In this document: positions 9,577-23,487 of the stretch, piece by piece | Layout of the letters: every line of letters starts with the position of its first letter | How positions within the stretch are numbered: the stretch's first letter is position 1 | From: Gemmatimonadota bacterium | GTDB lineage: Bacteria > Gemmatimonadota > Gemmatimonadetes > Gemmatimonadales > Gemmatimonadaceae | Direction of reading: 5' to 3' | Assembly: GCA_031127095.1 (NCBI GenBank) | Contig: JARIEX010000017.1 | Location: forward strand, 1 to 39,895 | Length of the DNA: 39,895 nt | Program-made: the position numbers and the translations under genes | The notes under the pieces: generated by a model | The model's database searches: none | What the model saw: the letters and a program-made list of their open reading frames with translations, nothing else | Told to the model about the DNA's origin: nothing

Positions 9577-11040
<1,464 letters not shown>

Positions 11041-11085
11041 CGCGCGTCGGTGACGTCGCGCTGACGGCGTGGCTGCAGAGTGAAC

Positions 11086-11113
11086 GGGCCGGTCACCACA
11101 TGGTGATCGGCCC
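11086..11113 (+). terminator. argG terminator hairpin
   Basis: A 12-bp stem (GGGCCGGTCACC at 11086-11097 with 11102-11113, including one G-U pair) has a four-base loop and is followed by GATTTCATT. It lies 45 bases after the argG stop. It also covers the ATG at 11100, making that an unlikely start for the next gene. Confidence 0.8.
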
Positions 11114-11135
11114 GATTTCATTCAGCCCGCCAGCC

Positions 11136-11537
11136 ATGAACGACACCCTGCTCCACGGTGAGATCACCCACGAAATCATCGGTGCGTTCTACGACACGTA
11201 CAACGCCCTGGGATGGGGATATCCCGAAAGTATCTATGCCAATGCGATGCCGATCTTTCTTTCGAAGCGTCGTCTTTCGTGTGAGCGCGAAGTCCCACTT
11301 CGTGTCACGCTCGAGGGCATCGTACTCGGAGAGTTCCGCGCCGACCTCCTCGTCGAGAAAAAGGTGATCGTCGAACTGAAGGCGTGCGATCGACTCGCCG
11401 GTGCGCACGAGGCACAGCTCATCAGCTATCTCAAAGCATCGACGTATCCTATCGGTTTGCTGCTGAACTTCGGACCCAAGGCCGAGGTCCGCAGGATCAT
11501 ATGGACCGACGATCTAAAGGTGCTGAGAGATCGCTAA
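11136..11537 (+). CDS. GxxExxY protein, PDDEXK-like nuclease family
   Basis: ATG 11136 is taken as start because the alternative at 11100 lies inside the argG terminator; the protein is then 133 residues, the usual size. The name-giving motif is seen as GYPESIY near residue 28, preceded by the conserved HEIIGAFYDTYNALGWG helix. A FRADLLV...VIVELKA block follows, carrying the D and ExK residues of a PD-(D/E)XK nuclease fold, and then QLISYLKASTYPIGLLLNFG. Function in the family is not established; nuclease activity is predicted from the fold. It occurs in many copies in some genomes. Here it directly abuts an imperfect inverted repeat starting four bases after its stop, the most suggestive part of its context. 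Codon use looks less GC-biased than in neighbours. Confidence 0.9.
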   Translation: MNDTLLHGEITHEIIGAFYDTYNALGWGYPESIYANAMPIFLSKRRLSCEREVPLRVTLEGIVLGEFRADLLVEKKVIVELKACDRLAGAHEAQLISYLKASTYPIGLLLNFGPKAEVRRIIWTDDLKVLRDR

Positions 11538-11540
11538 CGG

Positions 11541-11666
11541 CTGGAACACGGAGTGAACGGATTGCACCGATCACACAGATAAACGAACAGCGATGACGAC
11601 CACGATTTTCATCATGCTTTTGCTTATCTGCGTAATCCGTGAAATCCTTCATAATCCGTGTTCCAG
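11541..11666. repeat. Inverted-repeat element, copy A
   Basis: Two arms of about 42 bases face each other: 11541-11582 and 11624-11666. Both begin, reading inward, with CTGGAACACGGA and end with CAGATAA; between these they share GGATT, CAC and GAT with small mismatches and a 2-base length difference. The loop of about 41 bases is not recognisable. The right flank continues AGTTGCCGTTGCC, as in the second copy at 23378-23487. It lies between the stops of the convergent GxxExxY and VOC genes and would fold into a long hairpin in transcripts from either side. Confidence 0.9.
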
Positions 11667-11702
11667 CAGTTGCCGTTGCCGTTTGCCGTTCGTCCACACC
11701 CG

Positions 11703-12476
11703 TCAGTCGTGCTCGCTCATGTAGGAGAACACCGCACCCTGCGCGTCCTGGGCCACGATGATCTGACCGTACGGACTCGCGATCGGGCCGTTCAGGATCG
11801 TCCCCCCGTGTTTGGCCAGGGTGGCGTTGGCGGCGGCGAGGGAATCCACGGCAAAGTACGGCATCCAGTAGGGCGGAATGCCTTCCCACGCGGCGTCCAT
11901 CTGCATCACACCGGCGACGCCGGGCTCGCCGTCGTGCAGGATGTAGTACTCCACGGCGTCGCCGGGGAGACGTTGTGACGTGAGGCCGAACACCGCCATG
12001 TAGAACGCCGTGTTGGCCTCGGCGTTGCGGCAGGCCACCTCCGTCCAGCACATCGCGCCATGCTCCCCTTCGATGCCGGCACCGGCAAAACTGCCGTGCT
12101 CCCAGAGGCCGAATACGGCGCCGTCCGGGTCGATGGCGACGGCCATGCGCCCCAGATCGGGCGGGATCGGCATGGGCGGGACCATGATGGTGCCGCCGTG
12201 TCCCACGATTCGGGCCGCCGAGGCATCGGCATCGGTGACGCCGAAGTACACCGTCCAGGTGACCGGCGCGGCCTCCTGTCCGGGCATCTTGGGAGCAACG
12301 GCCGCCGCCGGCATGCCGCTCGCGAAGGCCATGGTGTAGAAGCCCAGCTCGGCCGGCGAGTCGCCGAAGGTCCAGCCGAATAACTCCCCGTACAAGGCCA
12401 TGGCGGCGGGAAGGTCGGACGTCGACAGGTCGAACCAGACCGGGCGATTGACGTGGCGCGCGGTTACAAGAGGCAT
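11703..12476 (-). CDS. VOC family protein (glyoxalase/bleomycin-resistance fold), two domains
   Basis: ATG 12476 has GGAGA about 6 bases upstream; the longer open frame is not coding. The 257 residues form two tandem vicinal-oxygen-chelate modules. The first begins WFDLSTSDLPAAMALYGELFGW and the second WTEVACRNAEANTAFYMAVFGL; each ends with a phrase like ...DPDGAVFGLWE or ...DAQGAVFSYM that carries the expected metal-ligand Glu position in the first module. Such proteins bind a divalent metal and act as lyases, dioxygenases or resistance proteins; the substrate cannot be assigned. It has no signal peptide and should be cytoplasmic. It is divergent from the exported protein at 12619, with 142 bases between the starts. 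Confidence 0.88.
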   Translation of the reverse strand: MPLVTARHVNRPVWFDLSTSDLPAAMALYGELFGWTFGDSPAELGFYTMAFASGMPAAAVAPKMPGQEAAPVTWTVYFGVTDADASAARIVGHGGTIMVPPMPIPPDLGRMAVAIDPDGAVFGLWEHGSFAGAGIEGEHGAMCWTEVACRNAEANTAFYMAVFGLTSQRLPGDAVEYYILHDGEPGVAGVMQMDAAWEGIPPYWMPYFAVDSLAAANATLAKHGGTILNGPIASPYGQIIVAQDAQGAVFSYMSEHD

Positions 12477-23377: not shown

Positions 23378-23487
23378 CTGCTGGAACACGGAATATGCGG
23401 ATCGCACAGAACCGCACAGATAAGCCAAAAGCGCTGTTTGCCTATCTGTGCGGTTCTGTGTGATCGGGTCAATCCGTGTTCCAGCAG
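23378..23487. repeat. Inverted-repeat element, copy B (no gene inside)
   Basis: Arms of about 45 bases (23378-23422 and about 23443-23487) both start, reading inward, with CTGCTGGAACACGGA and share GATC, CACAGAACCGCACAGATA near the loop; only a few positions differ. The loop is about 20 bases. Outer sequence, core motif and right flank (AGTTGCAGTTG) match copy A at 11541-11666. It lies between convergent genes ending at 23369 and 23514 and would form a long hairpin. Confidence 0.92.

Follow-up and report, generated by a model that had tools for sequence, protein, structure and literature searches.

RAYT genes and the REP sequences that accompany them form the closest described system. In the excerpted text of Nunvar et al. 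(2010, PMC2817692), RAYTs have flanking inverted repeats with which they co-evolve and with whose presence theirs is correlated, they hold a fixed position, and the gene changes fast; the Stenotrophomonas REPs enumerated in that excerpt occur in 37-427 perfect copies (PMC2817692). A second layout of interest is that of the 23S rRNA intervening sequence, which, according to the excerpted source, carries an ORF for a four-helix-bundle protein (PMC4990558). The GxxExxY proteins are a common family without a known job. GxxExxY, PDDEXK_3, PF13366 and TIGR04256 are barely mentioned in the open PMC literature (preprints aside); one article names GxxExxY beside an RT gene (PMC8934634).

The GxxExxY gene that is the subject of this analysis lies in a 39,895-nucleotide stretch of DNA (the window) and is adjacent to an inverted repeat. 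As far as the excerpted description of RAYTs permits comparison, the likeness is considerable. GxxExxY family genes are flanked by inverted repeats (101 of 219 loci, although the window's own gene has its repeat on one side only); in the window's genus, though not in the Acidobacteriota genome G401 (an own gene is the best match of 1 of 11 sampled hairpins), gene-less copies of the repeat are scattered; gene and repeat co-evolve and co-occur; and orthologous genes hold their position. Fast gene change is matched in part: the gene of the window's protein clade (clade W) changes faster than argG in five genomes, and faster than a VOC neighbour in two of three. In contrast to REP/RAYT, the enzyme is of the PD-(D/E)XK type and not an HUH/Y1 transposase (PF01797; only PF13366 and TIGR04256 match at E 0.001), the repeat consists of ~9-nt units in an inverted array and (by eye) lacks a GT(A/G)G head at the palindrome's foot, and copies are few (7-23 per family by exact pattern, as against the 37-427 of the excerpt). 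Enzyme and repeat are of other kinds, and the system is therefore not a REP/RAYT member, though it appears to work like one. The comparison with the 23S rRNA intervening sequence and its S23p ORF, limited likewise to what the excerpt describes, also has two sides. An ORF lies between complementary arms in both, and the four-helix-bundle genes studied here are arranged alike; on the other hand, the present loci are intergenic and not in rRNA (the window is without an Rfam match), GxxExxY is a nuclease by family, and its stem mismatches do not look RNA-selected.

That a GxxExxY gene-repeat partnership exists is nearly certain. We favor, with moderate confidence, the more specific reading that these are partnerships resembling RAYT-REP in their working but built on an unrelated enzyme, the GxxExxY clades having their own repeats. 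A REP/RAYT-like link had been proposed in the initial annotation, and the computable tests of it are positive, which suggests that the proposal was sound. What goes beyond that annotation is that the gene sits between the arms in about half of cases, that the arms are built of arrayed ~9-nt units, and that four-helix-bundle genes behave alike. The GxxExxY family thereby gains a concrete, clade-specific candidate DNA substrate.

The GxxExxY gene and the hairpins of the window

The window is contig C142 of a draft Gemmatimonas-like genome (G000; 3.5 Mb, 229 contigs, 83% complete). The features that matter here are as follows.

9628..11040, forward strand: argininosuccinate synthase-like gene (argG; an ORF), upstream neighbour and conserved anchor of 'site A'
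11085..11114, forward strand: intrinsic-terminator-like hairpin after argG (from a terminator search), outside the gene-repeat system
11136..11537, forward strand: GxxExxY gene for a predicted PD-(D/E)XK nuclease of clade W, 133 aa, with D-ExK-QxxxY residues (ORF and profile matches)
11536..11671, no strand assigned: W hairpin linked to the gene; its inverted arrays consist of CACNGATNN-type units, and its ends are AACGGC...GCAGTT
23378..23487, no strand assigned: orphan W hairpin ('site D'), gene-less, between convergent ORFs; in congeners it may be present, shortened or missing

The upstream ORF at 9628..11040 is presumably argG; argG matches are found in 28 of the 30 genomes of the genus, counting weak and partial ones. 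The GxxExxY ORF matches TIGR04256 (E 4.4e-36) and PF13366 (E 3e-37), and its ATG at 11136 is favored over a start at 11100, which falls within the argG terminator. The physical joining of this gene to an inverted repeat, as claimed in the initial annotation, is borne out: the last base of the stop codon is 11537 and CTGGAACACGGA begins at 11541, and the paired arm of the hairpin even extends from within the stop codon (AACGGCTGG, 11536) to 11671. The gene-less second copy that had been placed ~12 kb off is a related hairpin at 23378-23487. On RNA folding the gene-linked hairpin yields -61.6 kcal/mol (z -9.0) and the orphan -76.5 kcal/mol (z -13.5), with 0 of 200 shuffles as good in either case. 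Both consist of ~9-nt units in inverted arrays, and the window's repeat listing carries the hairpin copies as D15, I1 and I6. No T-tract terminator is found at the gene-linked hairpin, the region 10900-11800 yielding the argG terminator only, and no Rfam match is found within the window. (Runs of the hexamers (AACRGC)n/(GCYGTT)n or (GTTGCC)n lie directly against hairpin feet at 11667-11690 of the window and at site D loci such as L243 and L249.) A second GxxExxY gene of the same genome (contig C147, L002) likewise has a hairpin after it, which belongs to another unit family (CGCAGAG) and is without the window's motifs.

Over 56 aligned sequences, GxxExxY residues Y34, D70, E80, K82 and N111 are invariant, and near-invariant residues include E31, H91, Q94 and Y98. 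By sequence, the catalytic D-ExK site of a PD-(D/E)XK (PF13366) nuclease is intact, and is accompanied by QxxxY, which we take to be the motif so named in RecB/Cas4-type nucleases. Clade W is under purifying selection (dN/dS 0.04-0.20 over 15 within-clade pairs). A structure model of the window protein (pLDDT 91.5) has Cas4 SSO0001 as its nearest structure (E 2.6e-4, TMq 0.56), with weaker matches (E 0.007 and weaker) to LHK exonuclease, Hjc resolvase, lambda exonuclease and MGME1; no convincing sequence relative is found among solved structures (best E 0.16). The protein thus shares the PD-(D/E)XK core with its best structural matches, Cas4, LHK/lambda exonuclease and archaeal Hjc. Unlike them it is a minimal 133-residue protein, and function is not transferable from them. 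A reading as phage cargo was dropped, 50,697 phage records containing no GxxExxY match at E 1e-5; among 72,556 plasmid records there are 8 with a match, all below 60% identity.

The arms are periodic: the best lag is 8, 9 or 10 nt in 24, 46 and 23 arms, respectively, making 8-10 nt the period of 93 of 121. The arm consensus over 58 W hairpins from fetched loci is GAACACGGAtnnCACnGATnncaCnGAA..., in which the nine leading bases are fixed by the search pattern and the second and third units are free. At N and spacer positions 11 to 25 of W hairpins the two arms pair at 0.22-0.41, compared with 0.25-0.32 for swapped partners. Since these positions pair about as they do between swapped hairpins, unit sequence is kept more than a perfect stem. 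The first spacer does show a slight pairing excess (0.41 vs 0.25 and 0.38 vs 0.26 for swapped partners), and inward of position 28 pairing mostly exceeds the swapped value. Selection on the unit cores was also sought in orthologous hairpins and set aside: identity is 0.63 vs 0.40 over 32 comparisons, which is weak because these are ungapped.

RNA stems are expected to favor G.U over A.C mismatches. In GxxExxY arms, read on the sense strand, G.U (230) is no more frequent than A.C (242) among 996 mismatches in 6,483 pairs, and the same is true of four-helix-bundle arms (78 vs 101, sense strand), so that the stems look DNA-like rather than RNA-like. A small control, tRNA acceptor stems with at least 5 pairs, has 6 G.U, 0 A.C and 3 other mismatches in 126 pairs. 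An RNA stem or terminator role was dropped on these grounds (no G.U excess, no T tract, no Rfam match in the window).

Association of hairpins with GxxExxY genes

Relatives were collected in a single scan of genome contigs from bacteria and archaea. GxxExxY genes occur in at least 134 of 395 genomes of the phylum (Gemmatimonadota), and many other phyla are represented among the best 80 of 110 relatives, which were kept. Three 8-mers lie within 500 bp of the gene in a fraction of these best 80 loci and rarely or never in 323 distant 1-kb segments: ACACGGAT at 11/80 vs 0/323, AGACACAG at 11/80 vs 0/323, and ACACAGAG at 21/80 vs 5/323. Strong inverted repeats in general are concentrated at the gene. 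Over 180 oriented loci their density in the first 200 bp 3' of the stop is 1.12 per kb, vs 0.057 beyond 1 kb; 5' of the gene it is 0.33 per kb, vs 0.022 beyond 1 kb. Moreover, the upstream flank pairs with the downstream one (score at least 15) in 43/100 Gemmatimonadota loci vs 10/493 when flanks are swapped between loci, and in 57/75 loci of other phyla vs 17/373.

Enrichment of repeats near GxxExxY genes was a test named in the initial annotation, and the enrichment of hairpins there is strong. Arms or a hairpin (score 17) are found at 158 of 219 GxxExxY loci (94/124 in Gemmatimonadota and 64/95 in other phyla), and at 66 of 729 ordinary genes (47/372 of the congener G074, or 12.6%, 4/180 of the Acidobacteriota G401, and 15/177 at the loci of other phyla). 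At this threshold the remaining 61 of 219 GxxExxY genes have neither. Arms on both sides are found at 101/219 GxxExxY genes (Gemmatimonadota 42/124, other phyla 59/95) but at 2/729 ordinary ones (1 in G074, 0 in G401, 1 at other-phyla loci). Measured against shifted positions in the same loci, arms or a hairpin are found at 127/174 genes and 28/686 positions. These final counts cover 219 of 236 GxxExxY and 77 of 80 four-helix-bundle loci, leaving out short flanks and 8 loci from re-searched genomes; they include nine GxxExxY loci with an internal stop or frame problem, and related sequences among them are not independent. Loci L034-L037 share hairpins with L302, L306, L304 and L303, of which they are probably duplicate entries. 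Bracketing of the gene by arms thus extends over many phyla. At one locus (L125, G250:C69) the GxxExxY gene is flanked by very long arms (score 116) of higher-order repeats.

The association is not confined to GxxExxY. TIGR02436, which we take to be the family of the ORF in 23S rRNA intervening sequences, is a four-helix-bundle family whose genes have arms or a hairpin at 44/47 loci in Gemmatimonadota and 22/30 in other phyla, and lie between inverted arms in 61/77 (L142-L171, L408-L427, L458-L487). Their arms have a shorter period, the best lag being 7 nt in 9/25 and 8 nt in 6/25. No report linking four-helix-bundle/IVS genes with repeats was found in the open PMC literature, nor were the literal repeat strings.

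Co-variation of repeat family and protein clade was another of the named tests, and the two do co-vary. In the order of the protein tree (drawn without short matches and without at least one full match, G181:C52), the genus loci fall into unit families, with CACGGAT, CGCGAAGG, CGGAGG and CGCAGAG groups. Over 163 of 236 loci (those with arms and a usable protein, proteins with a stop being left out) arm similarity rises with protein identity (Mantel r 0.383, Spearman; 0 of 200 permutations as high; 13,022 non-syntenic pairs, only DNA-level syntenic pairs having been excluded, so that remaining kinship stays in). From the class below 30% identity to that above 70% (10 pairs), mean arm similarity is 0.215, 0.225, 0.275, 0.350, 0.440 and 0.560. 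Arm similarity is not higher within a genome (0.252, 103 pairs) than between genomes (0.267), and it is therefore the protein clade rather than the host that goes with the repeat.

Hairpin families in the genus

The pattern GAACACGGA-N65-95-TCCGTGTTC has 10 copies in the window's draft genome (among them the site D hairpin; the gene-linked one is longer and uncounted) and its reversed-pattern control has 0, so that the W repeat exceeds chance. It occurs in 8 of 30 genus genomes (G000 10, G074 19, G395 23, G397 9, G399 7, G400 22, G290 12, G358 15) and is absent from the other 22, the reversed pattern being absent from all 30. The argG site could be read in 26 genomes, the window's own included: 6 have the clade-W gene and W hairpins, and 20 have neither (only 213 bp and 599 bp after argG being readable in G181 and G172, respectively). 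In G172, argG is 97% identical, a different hairpin occupies site A, and there is no W hairpin. The site is unassembled or partial in four genomes, of which G269 and G396 are without W hairpins and G290 and G358 have them. The expectation that gene and repeat occupy the same genomes thus holds across the genus apart from these last two, in whose assemblies (12 and 15 W hairpins) the W gene is not found; neither has a true argG match, and their gene site therefore cannot be judged. A second pattern, of family X, is confined to 2 of 30 genomes, G172 (12 matches) and G290 (2), both with a clade-X gene; G074 also has a clade-X gene and no match to the X pattern, its repeat being a diverged form. 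The genomes of the genus are related, and these co-distribution counts are not independent.

The clade-W gene keeps its one site next to argG in 6 genomes, beside its hairpin rather than inside it. Its protein is 74-90% identical to that of the window in five genomes whose argG is at least 96% identical. With the VOC neighbour as reference, the protein has changed more slowly in G399 (90% vs 83% identity) and faster in G074 and G400 (82% and 74% vs 85%). The argG downstream site (L217-L233) is a hairpin hot spot, at which many congeners without the gene have long hairpins of other families. At site D a full hairpin is present in G000, G074, G395, G400, G290 and G358, and a remnant with 16-bp arms in G397, while G269 and G172 have no hairpin there; in G270, other-family arms occur together with a GxxExxY gene next to the orthologous neighbour. 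By eye, W hairpins at this site start AACNGC...GAACACGGA or CTGCTGGAACACGGA, and in several genomes their feet contact AACRGC/GCYGTT hexamer runs. Site D was also compared over 24 genomes (own included) as a candidate for a clean insertion site, but the gap in G269 and G172 reveals neither a duplication nor a sharp boundary. The GGCTGT left over in G269 may mark a former end or else be a scar. Among the W copies and sites compared, no target-site duplication or fresh, clear-ended insertion is found. W copies within a genome mostly differ from each other (tandem copies excepted). Many W sites are common to G000, G074 and G395 at ~80-90% flank identity; for others no partner is found among the fetched hairpin loci. 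At one syntenic pair of GxxExxY loci (L182/L190) the flanks are 95% and the genes 72% identical, the arms being likewise far more divergent than the flanks; genes and arms also diverge far more than flanks at the syntenic pairs L116/L181 and L002/L118.

The single-contig genome of the congener G074 was sampled as forty evenly spaced 20-kb pieces (800 kb). The sample contains 34 strong inverted repeats, none of them beside its one GxxExxY gene. When scored against the flanks of 256 genes of the GxxExxY and four-helix-bundle families, 28 of the 34 reach at least 25 (medians 9-12). The best match is one of G074's own 11 genes in 23/34, where 4.3% would be expected (256 genes), and an own gene is among the top three in 29/34. 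By best own gene, the 28 divide into 16 for GxxExxY (L121 6, L186 4, L172 3, L176 3) and 12 for four-helix-bundle genes (L151 4, L408 4, L410 2, L411 2); a gene of a foreign genome outscores the best own gene in 8 of them. In G401, by contrast, 400 kb yielded 11 hairpins at a laxer threshold (score at least 18), with an own gene best in 1/11, against a library of 9 own loci that holds only part of its four-helix-bundle genes. Gene-less dispersal is thus found in the genus but not in G401.

Working of the partnership and competing explanations

GxxExxY clades have their own inverted arrays of ~9-nt units, which bracket the gene or form a complete hairpin at its stop or start. The protein may recognize these units at the DNA level, probably in an extruded cruciform or single-stranded hairpin, and would cut at or near them; cutting in turn might seed, copy or maintain the gene-less hairpins, and the copies around the protein's own gene could be remnants of mobility or serve autoregulation. 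It is likely that the nuclease acts on hairpin DNA; that it also spreads the hairpins is a suggestion toward which the balance tips only slightly. If the reading is correct, the REP/RAYT lifestyle (a tamed enzyme with scattered palindromes) has emerged with at least one unrelated enzyme, and many orphan intergenic hairpins become assignable to their genes.

The order of events might instead be reversed, the hairpin being older and the GxxExxY or four-helix-bundle ORF being a homing-type parasite that invades it by cutting the empty hairpin and being copied into its loop. ORFs occupy the loops of 23S rRNA intervening sequences likewise, 101/219 GxxExxY and 61/77 four-helix-bundle genes lie between arms, site D is a gene-less W hairpin in several genomes and has other-family arms with a GxxExxY gene in G270, and genes and arms diverge within ~90-95% identical flanks at some syntenic places (L182/L190, L116/L181). 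However, the clade-W gene is fixed at one site in 6 genomes, beside the hairpin and not in it, and at sites A and D across the genus there is no pair of close sisters in which one has an empty hairpin and the other the same hairpin filled by its cognate gene. We regard homing as unlikely. A little less probable still is a role as host sites, with the hairpins serving as two-way terminators or as nucleoid or replication sites, and GxxExxY as their regulator or as a cruciform caretaker. Location of both window copies between convergent ORFs, partial conservation of positions across species and purifying selection on the clade-W gene would suit this; but clade-specific matching to paralogues is odd for a housekeeping function, the W pattern is wholly absent in close relatives such as G172, and the gene-linked hairpin is without a T-tract terminator.

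The layout recalls the four-helix-bundle ORF in the 23S intervening sequence, as the excerpted source describes it (PMC4990558), and the arms might accordingly be kept as a transcript stem for IVS-like processing or RNA binding. The mismatch counts (G.U not above A.C in either gene family, as against 6 vs 0 in the small tRNA control) and the lack of an Rfam match in the window make an RNA-level element very improbable. There is next to no chance that hairpins merely gather at certain intergenic sites where GxxExxY genes lie by coincidence, even though the argG site bears other-family hairpins in many gene-less congeners and 47/372 ordinary G074 genes have a hairpin nearby. Flanking arms at 101/219 vs 2/729 genes and the tracking of protein clade by unit family speak against it, and as a full account it is contradicted by own-gene matching in G074, the Mantel result and the enrichment counts.

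The gene-repeat partnership may have a wider extension. It is conceivable, at somewhat less than even confidence, that two unrelated small proteins, the PD-(D/E)XK nuclease GxxExxY (~9-nt units) and the four-helix-bundle 'S23/IVS' protein (~7-nt units), make up a widespread unnamed class of gene-repeat systems, each recognizing and propagating its own inverted tandem-unit hairpins. Jointly they would own most of the long hairpins in a genome of this genus (28/34 sampled), the 23S intervening sequences being stray members. The gene-in-arms layout of the four-helix-bundle genes may then explain the 23S rRNA intervening sequences, which would thus acquire a candidate origin. Locus L332 of the window's genome (G000:C138:16511-17048) consists of four tandem W hairpins, spaced 136-166 bp from start to start.
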